Below, one piece after another: positions 10,336-62,100 of a stretch of 64,000 nt of DNA (the first letter of the stretch is position 1; each line of letters opens with the position of its first letter). A program made the position numbers and the translations under genes. The stretch is from positions 37,971,989-38,035,988 of the forward strand of contig OY829326.1 in NCBI GenBank assembly GCA_963691655.1, in the 5' to 3' direction. Under the pieces are notes generated by a model. That model saw nothing but the letters and a program-made list of their open reading frames with translations. It was not told the DNA's origin and did not search any database. Source of the DNA: Toxonevra muliebris. Taxonomy: Eukaryota > Arthropoda > Insecta > Diptera > Pallopteridae.

Positions 10336-10640
10336 AAGAGGACCTCGTTAGTCTAGTGGATAGTGCACTAGACTTTCATCCAGAAGGTCGCAGGTTCGAT
10401 TCCCGTTTTGATCTGGTGGTTAATTCTCATAAACTTCTTATATTCACTAAGTGGATGAGAATTATAAGAAAGTGTACAAGTACACACCTTGGTTGGTAAT
10501 GGCAAAACCACCGAGCTGATAAAAAATTGCCACAGCCATTCGGAATCGGCGTTAAACTGTAGGTCCTACCATCGCCATTGTGGTCTAGTGTCAGAGTGTC
10601 AGACTCTTGCCTCTGGAGACCCGAGTTCAAGTCTCGGCTT
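10336..10640 (+). repeat. tRNA-Glu-derived SINE, copy 1 (two tRNA-like modules)
   Basis: The head reads like tRNA-Glu. An A box (TAGTCTAGTGG, near 10349) is followed by CTTTCATCCAGAAGG in the anticodon region and a perfect B box, GGTTCGATTCC, near 10393. The acceptor ends do not pair, so it is a SINE head and not a tRNA gene. The body contains AAGTGTACAAGTACACACCTTGG and ATCGGCGTTAAACTGTAGGTCC, both shared with the minus-strand copy at 33484-33782. A second tRNA-like module closes this copy (TGGTCTAGTGT ... GAGTTCAAGTCTC, about 10580-10640). SINEs are copied by a LINE reverse transcriptase and transcribed by RNA polymerase III. Confidence 0.85.
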
Positions 10641-11662
10641 GGGTATGTTTCTTATCTATCTTTCTTTCTTGGGGCTTTGTTACAATAGATCTTATAGGTC
10701 GCAGTGCCTGACTTTCGAGTCGTCCTTCCTTCAAATAATAATAATAATATATTAAACGAAGTATGAATTTCAAAACAGAGCAGTGCTGCCAAACCTTGGA
10801 TTTCAATATTTACTAGAGCTCCTAAAACACGCGTTCATTAGATTTAATTAAGTTATTGATTAAAGTATATGAGTTTATTTAAAGCTTATTTGAATATATA
10901 CATGTAGCCCTAAAACTTACATATTCTCATGACATTGCCAGACCAGTTTATTAAAAACTAAATTATTCTAAAATGAAAAAATGGGCCAAATCACATAATC
11001 AAATTTTGGTGACAGCCAAATGAAATTGTTTTTTCCAGAATTGAACACTGAGCAAATGAAAATGAGAACGCAAAATAAAAGAAAAAATATTATTGAGTGA
11101 CTTAAACAGTGTTGAAAATAAAAGCACTGAAAAACCACAGCTATTTTAAGGAATAAATTAAATTACTCTTTTCGAAAAAGAAAACTATAAACGCACTATA
11201 AACTACAAAATTTTCTTTTTTATTGCATTTACTTTCGATTTTTCTTAAATTTTTTTCCATCGTTGCTTCCCTTTTCCTTCTCTTTTCAACTATCTATTTC
11301 ATAAAAATAAAAATTATGAGGGAGCAATGTCCCCTCTTGTCTCTATGAAGCTATGGCTATGTCAAACCGACGTCGAATACAAATGAACGGCGCGGGCTTC
11401 TTCTGTGAACTGACGAAGTTTGAGACCACATGCCAACAGTTGTGCTGATCGTAAACTCATAACTACATGTTCAGAAGAAACGCTCCCCTCAGTTGCGCCT
11501 CGGTTGTGTCTTCTGGATGCGACTAATGTCACAAAGAAATTAGTTTAATGAATAGAATATTAACATTTGCGAACAAGAGTTGTTAGAGAAACTAGCAACA
11601 GAGTATATACCAAACTCTTCTAAAATCGCAACGTTTTCCAAATAAATTTTGTTTTTAAATAT

Positions 11663-11751: not shown

Positions 11752-12084
11752 TTAAAAACGATATGATCCTGAAATGCCGCCACCATAATTATTTTGATTA
11801 TAATCGAAATTTCTGGTTGCCTGAGCATGTGCATTCACATTGAAACGTCCATCGTCACTGCGATATAGATTATGATTGTATTGCGCCGAAGCTGTTCTGC
11901 CAAATTGATCAGAACTGTAACCAATGTCCAATGAACCACCACCTGGAGAGCGAACTTGACGTATTAGTAAAGGCGCGTCATAAACAAGATCAGCGTCATC
12001 CAGATGCAATTCATAGTCCAGGGGTGTGGCTGCAGCCAAAGCTATGCAGCAGAAGACCAACAATAAAACACACTTGGTTGACAT
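11752..12084 (-). CDS. Secreted antimicrobial-peptide-like precursor, attacin/edin-like
   Basis: The 110-codon open frame has the layout of a fly immune peptide precursor. Residues 1-20 form a hydrophobic signal peptide starting MSTKC. A short acidic propiece follows (about 21-41), then a furin-type site RQVR at 42-45, releasing a 65-residue mature peptide beginning SPGGGSLD and ending GSYRF. The mature part is rich in Gly, Asn and Tyr, without cysteine, like the attacin/diptericin/edin group; assignment within that group is uncertain. The frame is open upstream to 12198, but the Met at 12084 is preferred because it directly precedes the signal peptide and the longer stretch overlaps the TATA box and 5' leader. 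Expression in fat body and secretion to haemolymph are expected from the family. No intron is needed. It lies head-to-head with a paralogue at 13138. Confidence 0.8.
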   Translation of the reverse strand: MSTKCVLLLVFCCIALAAATPLDYELHLDDADLVYDAPLLIRQVRSPGGGSLDIGYSSDQFGRTASAQYNHNLYRSDDGRFNVNAHAQATRNFDYNQNNYGGGISGSYRF

Positions 12085-12180
12085 GGTTTTGCTGTTAGAT
12101 TTTGAAAATGAATTTAAATGAAACTGTATTGAGTTTGTAGACTTCAATTGAACTATTGAATGATGATGATTTGAATGGCA

Positions 12181-12290
12181 TTTTATACTTGTACTCAAAG
12201 TTTTAGAGATTGTGAAAAATTTAATCTAATTTTGCAGGGATTCACTTTTCGAAAAGAGATAAGAAAATTTTAAACCGAGCGGGAATCACA
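12181..12290 (-). promoter_or_regulatory. Immune-type promoter of the left peptide gene
   Basis: Reading in the gene direction, a kappaB-like site TGTGATTCCC (12281-12290), a GATA site CTTATCT (12257-12263) and a TATA box TATAAAA (12181-12187) precede the start codon. The expected transcription start is about 12150-12158, giving a leader of about 70 nt. Paired Rel/kappaB and GATA sites close to a TATA box are the known layout of fly antimicrobial-peptide promoters. The kappaB sequence (GGGAATCACA on the other strand) departs from the usual consensus in its last three bases. A related TGTAATTCCC (12415-12424) and GGGGAATTCAT (12350-12360) lie further upstream. Confidence 0.55.
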
Positions 12291-20360: not shown

Positions 20361-21394
20361 TTCCACAATCAGTTTTATCACAACCAATTACTTACTAGAT
20401 TACTATTTTAGATTGATAGCGGACCTTGTACTAGGGGAAGATGAGATGAACCCGAAACTGTAGGAGAACAGAAAGACTCGGCCGAGGTGCCGTTAAGTAA
20501 AATGATTGTTTTTTCAAAAACTGTAAGTTTTAATAAATTTTTCTTTGGAATACTTTTGAAAAGGGATTTTTGGAATAACCTCAAGGGAACCCGGGCTAGC
20601 CCCATATTTTCACTTTCAGAAAAATTTATATAAAGTACTGTTCAGAATTATATCGCACTTAGTACTCACTATGTTCAAAGCTGAATAACTTCGGCATAAA
20701 TCCAGAGAAATGCATCGGTTCTTTTTATTATAAAAGTCTATTTTATTCTATATTGTTTGAGAAATAAAAATACAAAACAAAAAAAAATATCAAATTTTAT
20801 TTGAAGGACTTTCGGATTTAGTGTACCAATTCCAATTTAGTATACCGCACTTAAACTAATTAATTAGTAATATTTTATTATTTAGTTTTTAGTACGAAGA
20901 AGTGTATTTGTTAATACATCACTACATAAATTTCTTAACAAATATCAGATTTTAAGGACCCCTAATAATATTCAGTTAAATTGAAGGATATCTCTCTCCA
21001 GGAAGTTTTAACTCCAACATTAGGACCATCGTTATAATTGTACTGTTTTCCATAGTTATTCCCTTTACGCTGAAGCCACCCACAACTGATTTCCGTAATG
21101 CTTGATTCGTGTAACTGTGGACGCCAAGGCAAAATTTGAGAATTGTGGCTTACTATATCCGATTTTGCAATTCATGCTGCATGATTCGGAGGGTTATCAT
21201 CAGTAGCGTATCCAGGGGGGTAGGGGGGCTATAGGAGCTGAAGCTCCCCTCCTCCAGAACCCGAAATCTTATACTAAACAGTCATTTTTGATGGACAAAT
21301 CAAAAATATTAAATTTTTCCAAAAAAAAAAGCCATCAGCAGTGAAAAGTATATACTTTCAACAAACGAAAAACTTTAGTTGTTTTTTTGTTGTT

Positions 21395-21532
21395 GTTAAT
21401 TTTCGAAGTATTGACTACTTGTTCCATTTTTTAGTTTAATTTGAAGTAATGTATAAACAGGCTTAAAGAACTATAAATTTAGTCAACACAACAACAGTGT
21501 ATATAGAGACGGCCAAATCAGACGGCCGTTTA
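21395..21532 (-). repeat. Dispersed repeat with GACGGCC palindromic end, copy 1
   Basis: On the minus strand it starts AAACGGCCGTCTGATTTGG, continues with TATATACACTGTTGTTGTG, TTTATAGTTCTTTAAGCCTG and ends GAAAATTAAC. The same blocks occur in order at 57283-57432, 58634-58760 and 59052-59192. It is non-coding and about 140 bp long. Confidence 0.75.
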
Positions 21533-29085: not shown

Positions 29086-30055
29086 ATTCATAATCAAAAT
29101 ATTAGCCATCGTAAGCTGTGACTTTTCCGTCCCATTCTGGCAATTGATGCATTCTGTCCCAGTTTCCCTTCTTTTGAGGCTAACCATCTATCAAGTCAAT
29201 TTTTCACTTCTTCATACGAATTGAAATGCTGTTCTGATTGAAACAAGTAGTAGTCGGAAGGAGCCAAGGCTGGTGAATTTGTGCAAGTGGGATATAACGT
29301 CCCATTTGGTATTTTCCAAATAGTTTTCAATACCCCGTGCAACATGAGGCCGAGCATTGTCATGTGGAAAAATGATTTCGTCATATTTTGGTCGCTTTTC
29401 TATCAATGCTCGGTTCAATTTGATCAGTTGTTATCGGTATCGTTCATCAATAATCGTTTCCCCAGGTTTTGGCAGTTCATAGTAAACAGCTCCCTTACTA
29501 TCCCACCATATACACAGCAACGTCTTCTTTCCTTGGGTATTGCGTATTGCTTGTGATGTTGATGGGTGATTTGGGTCTATCCCCAACTTTTTGTATTTGG
29601 GATTGTCGAAATAAACCCATTTTTCATCGCCAGCAATAATTCGATGCAAAAACTTCTGTCGTTTTTGCCGTTGGAGTAATATTTCGGAAATGAGTTTTTG
29701 TCTTTCGATGTATCTTTCCTTCAATTCATACAGCACCCATTTTCCTTTCTTAAAGCGTGTGGACTTTAGGAAACACATGCTTGGGAAATTTTCAAAGTTT
29801 TTTTTTTTGTCAATTGCTTTTCAGTTCATCAAGCTATGCTTGCAATTCGGCATCTTCGAATTTTTTCAATGGTTTCCCTCGGTCTTTGTTAATTACGTCA
29901 AAATCTTTTAAAATATCCGTCACAATAACTATCTTCCAACAATTGATAACTTTCAGCAGCCATTTTCTTCAAATCAAAGAAGGTTATCAAAATTCCCGAA
30001 GCTCGCAAAACTTCTTTTTCTGGTACAAAATTCGGCAATCGTAACCAATAACATA
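29085..30055 (-). pseudogene. Mariner transposase relic, irritans-like
   Basis: Minus-strand fragments in order are KKMAAESYQLLEDSY (HTH region), FDVINKDRGKPLKKFEDAEL, YELKERYIERQKL with LLQRQKRQKFLHRI, AGDEKWVYFDNPKYKK with catalytic Asp 1, FPHDNARPHVARG with Asp 2, LAPSDYYLFQS with Asp 3, FNSYEEVKN, and near the end YFDYE. The family is DD34D mariner. The copy has in-frame stops (for example at 29431-29433), frameshifts between Asp 2 and Asp 3, and a deletion between the N-terminal DNA-binding part and the FDV block. Terminal repeats could not be identified. It cannot encode active transposase. Confidence 0.9.
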
Positions 30056-33483: not shown

Positions 33484-33782
33484 CCTAGATTCATGGTTAG
33501 GTTAGGTTGGAGTGGCTGTCGAGAGACACACTTAGACCTGAAAGGCCCACATACTTGGACTTACAGTTTAACGCCGATTCCGAACGGCGGCGTGGCAATT
33601 TTTTATCGGCTTGCTGGTTTTGCCTTTACCAAGGTGTGTACTTGTACACTTTCTTATAATTCTCATATCCTTTATATTGATTATGAATATAAGACAGTTA
33701 TGAAAATTAACCACCAGACAAAGACGGGAATCGAACCCGAACCTCTAGTGCACTACTCACTAGACTATCGAGGTCGTATGAT
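33484..33782 (-). repeat. tRNA-derived SINE, copy 2
   Basis: On the minus strand the head has an A box (TAGTCTAGTGA) and a perfect B box GGTTCGATTCC (near 33731-33741). The body that follows matches copy 1 at 10336: GTGGTTAATT, AAGTGTACAAGTACACACC, AAAAAATTGCCA and ATCGGCGTTAAACTGTA. The 3' part differs from copy 1 and ends with a GGTTAGGTT-type sequence instead of a second tRNA module. An open frame through the element (33376-33873) has no coding meaning. Confidence 0.85.
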
Positions 33783-36398: not shown

Positions 36399-37259
36399 TG
36401 CCACCTTGATCAAAAAGTTCCCGAAATTTATTCAGAAAATTAAAAATACAAGTTTATTCATCTAAATCTATATTGTCCCCTTCAAAGTAATCTCCACCGA
36501 CTACAACACACTTATGCCAGCGCTTGATCCAATCCTCGAAACATTTTTTATATTCGGTTTTCGGTATGTCCTTCAGTGCTTCCTGCGATTTTTCCATTAC
36601 TTCCTCTCGGCTGCTGAAACGCGTTCCCCGTAATGGTTTTTTAACTCGTTTGAACAGAAAGAAGTCACAGAGAGCCAAATCAGGTGAATTTGTTGCATTT
36701 TTCGTCAAAAAATTACAAATAATGATGGCACTGTGCGACGGTGCGTTATCATGGTGCAAAATCCACGAGTTTTCTGTCCACAATTCTGGTCTCTTTCGGC
36801 GAATCGCTTCACCCAAACGCCTCATAACGCCCAAATAATACTCTTTGATGGTTAATTTCTTTTACTTTATCAACGTTTTCGTCGGTTTTCGATGTCGATG
36901 GTCTGCCACTGCGTTCATCATCTTCGATAGATTCACGACCACTTTTGAACCGCGAGTACCACTGGTAAACGACCGTTTTCTTTAGAAAATCGTTGCCGAA
37001 ACACTTTTCCAACATTTTCAACGTTTGGGCACCATTAAATCCAATTTAATAAAATTGTAAAAAATCGCCAACACACACAGAGATAGATGTACACTTGGCT
37101 ATGTAACTTTTGCAAATGTCAAGCTATGACGCTAAGATTTAGAGGGAATATAGAACAACAGATGTACCAACTAAACAAAAAAAAAAAAACGGAACTCAAA
37201 TCGGAACGATGGGAGCGCCACACTGTAGTTATTTCGGGAACTTTTTGATCAAGGTGGTA
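36399..37259 (-). mobile_element. Internally deleted mariner with terminal inverted repeats
   Basis: The left end CCACCTTGATCAAAAAGTTC plus CCGAAAT (36401-36427) is repeated exactly, inverted, at 37231-37257, a 27-bp perfect pair flanked by TG on the left and TA on the right, consistent with a TA target. Length is about 860 bp, against about 1.3 kb for a full mariner. Inside, minus-strand fragments are a DNA-binding part (KMLEKCFGNDFLKKT, VYQWYSRFKSGRE, SGRPSTSKTDENV) joined directly to GVMRRLGEAIRRKRPELW and SWILHHDNAPSH. The deletion removed the region with the first catalytic Asp. Confidence 0.9.
36454..37021 (-). pseudogene. Deleted mariner transposase coding relic
   Basis: The N-terminal part (from about 37021) keeps the KMLEKCFG helix, the WYSRFKSG recognition helix and the SGRPSTS linker. 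At about 36835 it switches frame into LGVMRRLGE. The C-terminal part (36454-36834) keeps Asp 2 in HHDNAPSH, Asp 3 in LALCDFFLF and the end RWHKCVVV...GDYFEGDNIDLD. Catalytic Asp 1 (the TGDE block) is missing, and a few residues before PDLAL are lost. The unbroken C-terminal frame suggests a fairly recent copy. Confidence 0.85.
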
Positions 37260-57282: not shown

Positions 57283-57432
57283 GTGTATACAGAGACGGGC
57301 AAATCAGACGGCCGTTTCTGTATACACTGTTGTTGTGATGACTACACATATAGTTCTTTTAGCCTGCAACACATTATTTAATGAAGCACATACATGGAAC
57401 AGTAGCCAAGACTTTGAAAGTTAAAAATTAGA
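57283..57432 (+). repeat. GACGGCC-ended dispersed repeat, copy 2, with terminal hairpin
   Basis: GTGTATACAGA at 57283-57293 pairs perfectly with TCTGTATACAC at 57317-57327, enclosing GACGGGCAAATCAGACGGCCGTT, which is itself nearly palindromic. The downstream part, TGTTGTTGTGATGACTAC, TATAGTTCTTTTAGCCTG and GACTTTGAAAGTTAAAA, matches the copies at 21395, 58634 and 59052. In this copy the palindromic end has apparently been flipped relative to the others, giving the hairpin. Confidence 0.75.
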
Positions 57433-57872
57433 TTAAATTTTCCACAGAAACTCATGTTAGTTTTTCATAATTTTGGGGCAATATTTCATTTCAATAATTT
57501 GTGCCTTATTTCATTATGAAAATCTAGATTCATTTTTCACTTAGCCAGTAGTGACAATTAGCATCCGAACGAATAATAGGATTCGATAAAATATTTTGGC
57601 AAAAGACCTAAGGTTCTTCGTATTTAAAATCGAAAATTGTCCTTAAGATTATTCAAAAATTCCTGTAATCCTAATGTTAATCCTAAAAAAATACTACGAT
57701 ATTTCGAATACTATCTGTATCTATTTACTTGAACGTCCACCATTTTATTATTATTTATTTTTTTTGTTGATTCTTTATCTAATTATTCAATACTCAAAAA
57801 AATTAATCAGGTTAATTATATTGATAAATAGGCTTTCTAAACAATAGTGCTAGAATAATACCAAGAGCCTTA

Positions 57873-57941
57873 GAACAAGCAGATCAAATGATCGTTTTGG
57901 AACCGGCTACGGTTCCTCATCAGTGGTGATTGTGATAGTTC
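57873..57941 (-). ncRNA. Type I hammerhead ribozyme, degenerate copy
   Basis: The minus strand keeps CUGAUGAG and a perfect stem II (GAACC/GGUUC with loop GUAGCC). However, the CGAAAC box reads CAAAAC, changing the catalytic G12 to A. Stem I is disrupted (two mismatches in the inner six base pairs), the outer GAACTA arm faces TTGTTC, and stem III has lost its G-C pair. Loss of G12 abolishes cleavage in known hammerheads, so this copy is probably inactive. Confidence 0.85.
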
Positions 57942-58207
57942 CCTCATTTCAAAAACTTATAAAAGTGCAAATATTGTAAAGGAAATGAAAATTACACTGA
58001 ATAGTATTGTTATGGAATACATTTGACATTTGAAAGAATTTACAGTCGTGTGGTTAAAGAGGGCGATTTGATTGTTTCATGCCATTACCCTCAAGATGAC
58101 ACTTTTTGTGTATGCATTCGCCATAATGAACGTCGCTACTGCATTTGTGTTCTTTTATACAGTCGATATGCAGAAGGAATTATTTTTTATATGAGAAAGA
58201 AAAGCGT

Positions 58208-58286
58208 AAGGCCATGCCCTCGCCGGGAATCGAACCCGGAACCTCTGAGATGATAGTCTAGCATTCTACCACTAAACCATCGATGC
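58208..58286 (-). promoter_or_regulatory. tRNA-like Pol III promoter (A and B boxes) within the hammerhead element
   Basis: The minus strand begins GCATCGATGGTTTAGTGG, close to the 5' half of a glycine tRNA. It has a consensus A box TGGTTTAGTGG (58269-58279), a perfect B box GGTTCGATTCC (58226-58236) and the T-arm CCGGGTTCGATTCCCGG. The anticodon arm and acceptor stem do not pair, so it is not a working tRNA gene. The spacing of about 33 nt between boxes suits an internal type 2 Pol III promoter. It starts about 34 nt after the end of the upstream direct repeat. Confidence 0.75.
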
Positions 58287-58367
58287 AATTTTAGTAAAAA
58301 TTTAATTAAATTCAATTGTTAGGCTTTAAATGAACAATGATGCCAGAAGAATTTCAAAAAGTTCATA

Positions 58368-58436
58368 GAACTAGCAGATCAGACGATCGTTTCGGAACCA
58401 ACTACGGTTCCTCATCAGTGATCTTTGTGATAGTTC
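58368..58436 (-). ncRNA. Type I hammerhead self-cleaving ribozyme, complete
   Basis: On the minus strand, 5' to 3': outer stem I GAACUA, internal loop UCACAA, inner stem I AGAUCA, core CUGAUGA, stem II GGAACC, loop GUAGUU, GGUUCC, core GAA, stem III AC with loop GAUC and GU, cleavage base C17 (58382), inner stem I UGAUCU, GC, outer stem I UAGUUC. All conserved core bases are present and every stem pairs perfectly (6 plus 6, 6 and 2 bp). Cleavage is predicted between 58382 and 58381. The stem I internal loop and the hexaloop of stem II are placed for the tertiary contact of natural hammerheads. The 2-bp stem III is typical of retrotransposon-type hammerheads, which often work as dimers. Confidence 0.93.
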
Positions 58437-58633
58437 CCTCATTTGAACAATCTATATAAGTGAAAATACTGTAAAGTAAATGAGAATTACAAATACAGTT
58501 ATTTTCACCGAATAGTATTTTTAAAAGGAACTATTACTACTTCTTTGACACTTGTATTATATATTGGTCAGATTTTCTGACATCTAATACGAACCGTGTC
58601 TGTTTTTCATATGAAAAAATTTTTTGTTTTTTT

Positions 58634-58760
58634 TTGTTGTTGTGATGACTACATTTGTTCATTAAGCCTGTTTATATATAACTTCAATTACTGAATTTAA
58701 TATGAACTTAAGTCATGACTTTGAAAATTAACGTCTAGATTTAATTTTCATAGTCTCCCA
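58634..58760 (+). repeat. GACGGCC-type dispersed repeat, copy 3 (lacks palindromic end)
   Basis: It starts at TTGTTGTTGTGATGACTAC and shares ATTAAGCCTGTTTATA, GAACTTAAGTCATGACTTTG and AAAATTAACGTCTAGATT with copy 4. It lies directly beyond the hammerhead element. Confidence 0.7.
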
Positions 58761-59051
58761 AAAACTATTATAAACTGATCGAATGGGGCTCGTTCAAAAA
58801 AAATTACACCTAGAATCATTTTCTAACACACACTCTCATGTACTAGACTTTCAAATAAAGAACTGTGATGCAGACTAGCTACAATCGGAAAAAACAACAA
58901 CATAAGTATATAGAACGGTAGTGGTAGTTTCTTTCAAAATCTCTATTCAGTGAAGATATTTGGAATCAAATCTGTAATTATGGGTTATGATTTCAAATAT
59001 TAGTAGCTCATATAGGATATTGAAAGATTAAGAAATATCACTAAGATTCCG

Positions 59052-59192
59052 AAACGGCCGACTGATTTGGCCTTCTCAATATGCATTGTTATTGTGATGA
59101 CATTAATTAACGAATTTAACATGAACTTAAGTCATGACTTTGAAAATTAACGTCTAGATTCAATTGTCAGCCTCCTCAAAACTATCATAAAT
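59052..59192 (+). repeat. GACGGCC-ended dispersed repeat, copy 4
   Basis: It begins AAACGGCCGACTGATTTGG, then TTGTTATTGTGATGACATTAA, and GAACTTAAGTCATGACTTTG with AAAATTAACGTCTAGATT, the last two nearly identical to copy 3. Two copies close together suggest local duplication. Confidence 0.75.
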
Positions 59193-62100
59193 CATTTTTT
59201 ATTCTTCTTCTTCTTTTTTAGTATTTTCAATTTGGAAAATTTTTTTTCTTTTATTTTAATAATTTTTAATATAAAAATATCAACAAAGTCACACGTTTTG
59301 GTCCTAGAAAATTGTGTTAGTAAAAATTTCAAAAAGCTAACAGAAATAATTGGCTTCTGTCAAAAAATGCACTTTTGGCCAGATTCTAGTAGCAATTCAT
59401 ATCAGTTTCGACTATTGATTCCTTTAGGCTCCATTCCGAACGCGAACGAAGAAGGTTTTAGGTTATGAAACCACAACTGAGTTATGATCTATTTTTTGTT
59501 GTAAGTATGTAGTTGATTACTTTTCAATTGCAATTGCAATTATTTTCTTTAAACTACGCCTTAAATAAATATTTAACTCCATTTTTATTACTAATAATAT
59601 CAAAAACTGCAGCTCTCGCAACTCCCTTTCTATTACTCTCTTTCGCTCTCACATGTTCACTCCATCTCCAAAAATGTTACTATCTGTGAGTAAAATTATC
59701 TGTCACTTTCCAACTTTCTATCGTTGTTATTGTTTTTTTCGGTGAGTTTATTATTATTATTATTTTTGTTGTTATTTTTTTGTCATACTATTGCGTTTTT
59801 GTGGGTTTATTAAATTGCTTTGTTGTGTGTGTATGTTTTTTTTTGCTGGCTGGTTGTTGTTGCTACTGACTTTGACCTTCACATTGAAATTTGAAATTGT
59901 AGCAAAAATTAAACATACATTCATACAAATAAAAAACTCACAATTTAAGTTTTTTTTTTTTGGAAATTATTATCAAACCACATGAAAAGTTTTGTATGCG
60001 CATATATATTATACATACACACATATACATACATATACTCTTTAAGTGTGTAGGTACTTATATTAATTTGTATATTTAATTTAAATTCTGCTTATAAAAA
60101 GAATCAAATTTTATGTGTTTGTTTTCATAAAAATGCAAAAAATCTACTTTTTAAATTAAATGGAATTGTTTAATTATTTAAATATGTACATGTATGTACA
60201 TAACATATATTAATATTAAACAAGATCTGACGATTAGTTCAAATTTTAAAATCTAGTAGTACGAATGTTGATCTTCGAAATCGATTATTGAGGGGTAGGC
60301 GAAAAAATGTTTAATAGATTGGAATCTTATTCTAGACCTAAGACAAGGTAAAGAGTTCTTCGTTCTCATCTCTTACAATCGCTGGCAGCACATCGGAACT
60401 TAGATTACTTAGTTGTCTAATGGGACAGATATCATCTATGCATGAAAAATGAGGAGATAGATCAAATTCGAGCGTCAAAAAAATAAACTAGCGAAGCTTG
60501 CCCTAGGAATCGTAGATACAAAATCGTTGGTCCCGAACAATTGCGGATAGATTAGGAATCGTACCATTTTATATTTGTATTATGCAGATCAAGATTAAAT
60601 AGCTTAAGTAATCGATAACTAAAAAAAATCGCACCTTTGCGCGACAGGGTGGGACTTGGCACCCTTGTTTTCAAATACAATGCCTTTAATTTGTAATACT
60701 TTTGACAACTTGCGCAATGGGGACAAACATCTTTCAGACGGATCTTAGAGTATATCAAAATTTAATCTTTGCCATCGCGAAACTCAAGACAAACTTTATC
60801 CAATAGTATGCCTCAAAAGAAATTAAAAAAAATCAAAAACGTCATAGCGGAAATACAGAACTTTTATTAAATCCATCAACCAAACAGTTCGGTTCAGAAA
60901 TAGACTAATATTCCTTCATTTGAAAAACAAAAATATAAAGATTTTAATAGAAAATTTTGCAAAAATTCCTCAAGCTTGCTGATATTCCATGTACTTAAGT
61001 GTGTATATATAAATTGCTTAATTATTCTTTCATTTAACTTTTAACTATTATTATTATTTATTAAGATTGACAATGAGCGATTGTCAGAGTGTCATATGGA
61101 AAATGTCAGTCGTATAATTTTATATAAAAAACCATTAATGAATTTTGTGACGGCAAGTAACGTAACACGAAGAGAAAACAAATAAATTGAATAAAAAACA
61201 GCAACAGAAAAAGAAACACACTTATGTAAATGTGTTTGTATTCAAAAAAAAAAAAAAATTATTTGAAATTTTCAACATTATATTTATGCAATGAATCATC
61301 ACGTTTTTCCTAAGAATATGCTGGCAACAGGTTTTTTTTTTTAGTAGTTTTGCAACTCATTATTTGCATAAAATATGCGACAGTATTATGTAATATAACA
61401 AAAACAAAACCAAACGCAACAACAACTATACCAGAAAAAGCAAAACAATTTGCAGCAAACAAATTAAACAAATTTTAAACTGCTTCTCAAACTAAAGAAT
61501 AAGTAGGAAAAAAATATGAAGATAACTTCAAACAAAACAAAGCGCGTTAAAGTGAAGAGTTCAATGTGCTTTACCTGCTGCTGCTGCCTGTTTGTACGTA
61601 TGTGTATACGTGTGTATGTGTGTGTGTGTGTGTAAATGTGCATGCATGCTTCTTGCTTGTTGTCTTCATCATCATCTTCATTTTTTAATCATCATTGGTG
61701 ATGCTTCAACATTAGCAACAGGAACAAAAACAACAACAACAGCGGAAGCCTCATCTTCATGATTTGGTACGAAAGCAGAAGCAGCAGCAGAAGCAAAGTG
61801 TAAAGTAAAAAAAGCAACAACAACAATAAATGCATGTGCGAAAAGAAGCAGAACTCACGCTGAGCCAACAAGAACACTATTGCTATAAGAATAGCTACAA
61901 CAACAACAAGGTGATGACAACAGATACGTTCATACATATGTATACATAGTATGTATGCCTGCAGCCACTCATACACATATGCAGTTTTCTCATCTTCATC
62001 TTCTTGTGCATTCATAAGATACTCTCTTTTATGCCAATGCCAGCGATCTTTGACCACAACAATATTTCAACTTGCAGCAGCCAACAGCAAAAAGGCACCA

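Follow-up and report, generated by a model that had tools for sequence, protein, structure and literature searches.

What looks like a complete self-cleaving ribozyme in the DNA of a fly raises the question whether the motif is genuine and, if so, what kind of genetic element carries it. The window, a stretch of 64,000 nucleotides of Toxonevra muliebris, contains the motif on the minus strand at 58368..58436, where the sequence-only reading had placed a complete type I hammerhead; the coordinates, stems, type and cut (58382/58381) all proved correct. Core and stems are intact upon re-derivation by script and in an alignment to the Rfam model RF00163, and direct reading and the script agree that 20 of the 20 pairs on the minus strand, from 58436 to 58368, are canonical. 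The core runs as CUGAUGA, stem II, GAA, stem III and then C17, which corresponds to the conserved CUGANGA...GAAA...UH arranged between three stems with stem I open. Stem II consists of 6 bp (GGAACC/GGUUCC) with the loop GUAGUU, and stem III of 2 bp (AC/GU) with the loop GAUC. Stem I is in two parts, an inner one of 6 bp (AGAUCA/UGAUCU) and an outer one of 6 bp (GAACUA/UAGUUC), with the internal loop UCACAA/GC. From this structure we infer catalytic activity with cleavage after C17 (58382), the predicted cut lying at 58381..58382 of the minus strand. The short stem III and its tetraloop together form the palindrome ACGATCGT (58383..58390, minus strand). A palindromic stem III has been described in repeat hammerheads of Aedes and elsewhere (PMC3088659, PMC6466107, in the parts dealing with these motifs), and by analogy the stem III and loop ACGAUCGU could form 8 bp between two copies, giving a double hammerhead.

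The probability that such a structure arises by accident was estimated with a generic type I descriptor, which matches the window once, at this motif. Among 800 random sequences of 128 kb, generated by a second-order Markov model trained on the window, a match was found in 11 when at least 4/2/4 bp were demanded in stems II/III/I, in 2 at 5/2/5 or more and in 0 of 800 at 6/2/6 or more, a count that takes into account neither the outer 6-bp stem I nor the genomic copies described below. With the laxest filters, an 86-base query scored 24.7 bits with RF00163 (Hammerhead_1), for which the gathering threshold is 34, at an E-value of 1.7e-4 for 86 bases; the alignment spans all 45 model positions, including the stem III region, and contains 0 non-standard pairs. 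No hammerhead was reported in an Rfam scan of the window at gathering thresholds, in an E-value search of 1 kb, or in 12 pooled loci with other copies (27 kb, E up to 0.5), and a genome-wide search with RF00163 gave no match at E≤0.001, 14 control genomes being equally silent. By structure, the motif belongs to the type I hammerheads; its score lies below the threshold of the curated Rfam model. We retain the type I label because a gathering score is the curator's threshold and not a structural feature.

The sequence-only reading had proposed to give up the ribozyme should no covariance-model hit exceed the threshold, and 24.7 against 34 bits is formally such an outcome. We do not judge it to be a refutation, since the RF00163 match is full length and the evidence from the repeat family is independent of it. 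A chance look-alike without ribozyme function would agree with the unreached gathering score, with the lack of a match in the 12 other loci and with the minimum-energy fold of this copy, which differs from the hammerhead (−22.0 vs −15.4 kcal/mol, tertiary contacts left out). Such an accident is nevertheless highly improbable, given the absence of 6/2/6 matches from all 800 random windows, the sub-threshold alignment over the full model, and the presence of a descriptor-complete hammerhead in 37 of 87 distinct genomic loci (duplicates removed, each locus scanned whole).

These loci belong to a repeat family. The motif had been presented as a locus, and it turns out to be one among hundreds of copies; the link to retroelements that had been suggested at the same time holds, as the repeat around the motif occurs in many copies and shows target-site duplications. 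The genome-wide search for further copies that had been advised, carried out over 491 Mb in 96 contigs, returned 422 exact matches to the 21 bases 3' of the cut and 191 exact matches to the 34-base core, with 0 for the reversed-pattern controls. Viral contigs gave 0 matches to the core. For closer study 90 rows, representing 87 distinct places, were fetched: the 40 best-scoring loci, a choice biased toward long copies, and 50 loci that were chosen by the exact 21-mer after the cut in the order of their position, all of which lie on contig C1. A descriptor-complete hammerhead is present in 20 of the 40 best-scoring loci and in 19 of the 50 positional ones. In an alignment of 37 of the 43 rows with the motif (two inverted pieces and four rows with deletions or truncation were left out) the mean column identity is 96%, and the copies are too alike for covariation to be read from it.

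Divergence was determined for 59 loci covering the middle of the unit, from which 3 duplicates had been removed. They comprise two subfamilies of 31 and 21 loci, and the 7 that fall outside both were compared with subfamily 2. Copies deviate by approximately 4% from the subfamily majority, namely 3.8% within the hammerhead and 4.3% outside, which suggests that the family may be fairly young. Equal divergence inside and outside the hammerhead is as expected for neutral decay following insertion, and these 59 loci show no sign that the hammerhead has been under selection since insertion. The majority sequences of the two subfamilies differ at 0 of 69 hammerhead columns and at 4 of 148 columns outside, a weak difference (Fisher p 0.31).

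The anatomy of the repeat is best seen in locus L013, which contains a full unit of 483 nt whose two ends fall on one position of the cycle. Closure of the unit on itself also occurs in L014, L025 and the tandem dimer L102. Direct repeats are found inside three copies: 70 bp at a distance of 450 nt in L014, 73 bp at 468 nt in L025, and 64 bp at 413 nt in L046. In L102 two hammerhead cores, 384 nt apart, are joined through the same unit junction; neither of the two passes the full descriptor, stem III having a C-A mismatch. These copies exceed one unit, as would follow from a circular or multimeric RNA template. The units of L013, L025 and L102 contain no plus-strand frames of 40 or more amino acids from an ATG, and none of that size from an ATG appears when the L013 unit is read as a circle, minus-strand frames of 46 and 47 amino acids occurring in L025 and L102 only. 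On the forward strand of the same three units there was no match to one strict consensus each for the Pol III box A and box B, the internal promoter elements of tRNA-derived SINEs. A non-coding repeat of a few hundred nucleotides with a type I hammerhead, one of the features of metazoan non-LTR retrozymes, is what the 483-nt L013 unit represents, three copies having been tested for frames.

The ends of the copies provide more information on how they were made. The 3' ends are clustered, at approximately unit positions 476–483 and 60–73, with the matching end of the second subfamily near 456, whereas the 5' ends are spread across the unit, indicating variable truncation, with clusters near 120 and 136–141. 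The cluster at 136–141 comprises L012, L016, L018, L023, L064, L074 and L086 and lies near AAAAACAGACACGG; in some copies it is situated downstream of a TATATAAA-like stretch. It is possible that this cluster marks a transcription start. Of 87 loci, 8 have target-site duplications that measure 8 bp or more, as compared to 0.93 on average (at most 4) when the flanks are permuted, and exact flanking repeats of at least 12 bp occur at 3 of 87 loci versus 0 with permuted flanks; both counts were made on 87 of the 90 rows after removal of three duplicate places. At least 7 of the 90 rows (L013, L017, L028, L032, L074, L090, L098) have an inverted piece of the unit abutting the 5' end. Head-to-head inverted copies were also seen in L078 and, by eye, in L095, and in several such copies the junction lies inside or beside the hammerhead. 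Clustered 3' ends, variable 5' ends, duplications and 5' inversions are marks of target-primed reverse transcription (TPRT). The family thus has the 5' truncation, clustered 3' ends and target-site duplications of SINE/TPRT-type elements, with the duplications being clear in a minority of the loci (8/87).

Close neighbours are rare. Among 100 listed 21-mer sites of the 422 there are no same-strand pairs less than 1 kb apart, and among 100 listed core sites of the 191 there is one, the dimer L102. This near-absence implies that, among the listed sites, intact motifs seldom stand in tandem, although damaged neighbours would escape such a count. Among the places listed or fetched, the copies are mostly single and dispersed.

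Taken together, these properties make it probable, with good confidence, that the motif is a type I hammerhead in a non-coding, non-autonomous retroelement of approximately 480 nt, of the kind known as metazoan retrozymes. The best reading is that of a SINE-like element, a retrozyme in an unusual dispersed form. Its cycle would start with transcription of a genomic copy. The hammerhead would then cut multimeric or circular transcripts at C17, either alone or as a double hammerhead formed via the palindromic stem III, and joining of the ends would yield a circle of approximately 480 nt, as suggested by the closure of the unit on itself and the over-length copies. Finally, a borrowed reverse transcriptase would copy the RNA at nicked DNA in a target-primed reaction that starts at preferred 3' sites and stops at variable 5' points. 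This last step is supported by the clustered 3' ends, the 5' truncation, the target-site duplications and the 5' inversions. For animal retrozymes, the repeats are described as carrying no motif that reveals the helper enzyme (PMC7761336, as far as its treatment of these repeats goes). With over-length copies present in a genome that has few tandems, a circular template is the simplest explanation, a tandem source locus being the alternative. The copy ends, target-site duplications, inversions and over-length forms among the fetched copies can be regarded as a record of the copying mechanism, and the family resides, with hundreds of copies, in a fly, a kind of host in which RNA work is tractable.

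Several observations speak against this reading: close tandems are rare, the hammerhead decays as fast as the remainder of the unit, its fold is less stable than alternatives, outer stem I is rarely predicted to form in context and the Rfam scores stay below threshold. Furthermore, the cut shows no excess of 5' ends: 2 of the 90 rows, both of them positional loci, start no more than 3 nt away. Cleaved linear RNA has therefore left no mark, which is expected if intact circles are copied and equally if the ribozyme plays no part. The latter would apply if the repeat is a SINE-like element that amplifies through linear RNA, with the hammerhead as a passenger whose cleavage is irrelevant and with over-length copies derived from a rare tandem source. 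The lack of a 5'-end excess at the cut site, the equal decay, the existence of one tandem dimer (L102), and the predicted displacement of outer stem I by an upstream hairpin, discussed below, all fit such a passenger. The hammerhead being identical in both subfamily majorities argues against it, weakly in view of the p value of 0.31, and so does a comparison of the copies in the window itself, where the hammerhead has been better kept than its surroundings. On balance we consider the passenger explanation unlikely.

The latter comparison concerns two copies. Copy A (58291..58625, minus strand), which carries the motif, corresponds to approximately positions 121–479 of the 483-nt L013 unit and is 82–96% identical to its 39 best other matches. 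Copy B (57812..57996, minus strand) is 79% identical to copy A and 79–83% identical to its 39 other scored genomic matches, and these low values identify it as an old copy. Its hammerhead (57873..57941, minus strand) is broken: the core G12 is changed, and inner stem I and stem III are mispaired. Between A and B there are 9 mismatches in the 69 positions of the ribozyme stretch versus 39 in 134 positions of the flanks (p 0.014). The possibility that A and B form one recent tandem dimer was ruled out, since B is 79% identical to A and 79–83% identical to copies elsewhere, whereas A reaches 82–96%. Two small pieces of an L013-type unit lie nearby, a fragment at 59206..59246 on the minus strand (unit 38–78, 98%; L048 4195–4235) and an inverted one at 58904..58954 on the plus strand (unit 216–266, 90%; L048 3893–3943).

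The upstream hairpin mentioned above is predicted at approximately 58424..58540 on the minus strand, its left arm including TAATAGTTCC at 58527–58536. Predictions that include the surrounding sequence let the 5' strand of outer stem I pair instead with a segment about 100 nt upstream, with a probability above 0.5 in 17 of 22 intact copies, and outer stem I itself exceeds 0.5 in 1 of 22; the 22 were drawn from the 37 intact loci, the others having failed a stricter pattern or having no upstream sequence. Shuffled upstream controls, 60 mononucleotide shuffles for each of two copies, gave none as good. Folding as a circle, applied to one copy, the L013 unit, gives a predicted energy of −103.8 as compared to a shuffle mean of −73.7 (sd 5.7; z = −5.3), with 0 of 200 shuffles as low. 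By competing for outer stem I, the upstream hairpin may hold the ribozyme in check, and the same prediction can be read against ribozyme activity in context. A more specific scheme, which we put forward tentatively and regard as conceivable rather than probable, is that a built-in hairpin swaps partners with the outer half of stem I in a SINE-like retrozyme whose ribozyme-made RNA circle serves directly as the template for TPRT. If this were true, the partner swap would toggle the ribozyme between a closed-circle form and a cutting form, and copying of the circle would yield dispersed, 5'-truncated and sometimes over-length copies.

A different origin of the repeat would be from a Penelope-like element, either as a derivative that is non-autonomous or as a solo terminal repeat, moved by a Penelope reverse transcriptase. 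Penelope-like elements likewise combine a hammerhead with a retroelement and partial tandem copies, and the genome contains 148 matches to their reverse transcriptases, in several identity classes and some with open frames of 827–866 amino acids, as well as one broken element with both a reverse transcriptase and a GIY-YIG domain. One of the 148 matches lies at G000:C2:62220143-62220922. Penelope terminal repeats carry minimal hammerheads, and Penelope elements often have inverted 5' ends. A partial tandem arrangement is known for them as well, according to the account in PMC11167929. However, no hammerhead was found in the 5' regions of three long-frame elements (L103–L105) or around the broken element (L051), parts of L104 and L105 reading N, and the unit has no significant similarity to these sequences (best E 0.018, matches of at most 22 bases), a comparison that covers about 5 of the 148 places. 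Moreover, Penelope hammerheads usually lack helix III and tertiary contacts, as far as they are characterized in PMC6155905, whereas in copy A stem III is present with 2 bp and stem I consists of two parts. Penelope-like elements also encode a reverse transcriptase with GIY-YIG, whereas the unit described here closes on itself and has no long frame. A Pfam search for GIY-YIG gave 2 matches, one of them SLX1-like by eye; almost all of the 148 reverse-transcriptase matches escaped it. By eye, no reverse-transcriptase-like piece was seen in 38 frames near the copies, one of which was among seven proteins scanned. A Penelope origin appears improbable to us; a Penelope enzyme as the helper is possible.

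It is of interest to compare the retrozyme-like element with systems described before. Metazoan non-LTR retrozymes (Cervera and de la Peña 2020, PMC7229834) are likewise short non-coding repeats with a type I hammerhead and a self-paired circle, and insects are among the hosts named in that description, so that the kind of element itself is already known. The sections on their organization give repeats of 150–450 bp and RNAs of approximately 170–400 nt, as compared to the unit of approximately 480 nt found here, and tandem copies, whereas those in T. muliebris are mostly single, dispersed and 5'-truncated, with some inverted. The departures from described retrozymes are the length of the unit and the dispersed, truncated and sometimes inverted copies. 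Transcripts and circles are reported there for metazoan retrozymes, whereas the present family is described from its genomic DNA. Another dipteran example is the repeat hammerhead of Aedes aegypti (Perreault et al. 2011, PMC3088659), which by its description also has a short palindromic stem III; according to the part of that paper on its activity, the Aedes RNA that was tested showed no cleavage. The type III hammerheads of Diptera, as presented for Rhagoletis, Musca, Hermetia and D. pseudoobscura (PMC7936874), resemble copy A in that an internal loop interrupts helix I and differ in topology, with stem III open instead of stem I. A higher fly with a type I hammerhead in a dispersed element did not turn up in the open-access papers searched, among which most subscription articles are missing, and on this weak evidence such an element may be new.

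Some further sequences in the window deserve mention. Directly 3' of copy A lies a tRNA-like sequence (58215..58286, minus strand). It was considered as a part of the element and rejected, because the matches of other copies end before it. Similar tRNA-like stretches occur at 10345–10566 (+), 10574–10645 (+) and 33557–33775 (−); the first and the last of these share a body that is 77% identical and resemble tRNA-derived SINEs. A second repeat family is present near the hammerhead copies, at 59097–59191, 58678–58774 and 57310–57442 (−), and also at 21393–21531 (+). It is recognizable by a TCATCACAACAACA-like stretch, and one copy has a hairpin-like sequence around GAAACGGCCGTCTGATTTGCC. Mariner-type remnants were noted at 36454–36861 (−), named by eye only and without a Pfam match, and at 29431–29820 (−), where a transposase remnant matches Pfam Transposase_1. 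An attacin-like frame at 11752–12225 (−) matches Pfam Attacin_C below the cut-off and supports a fly host, since an alignment that covers 70% of the frame shows 61% identity to a protein of the stalk-eyed fly Teleopsis dalmanni.
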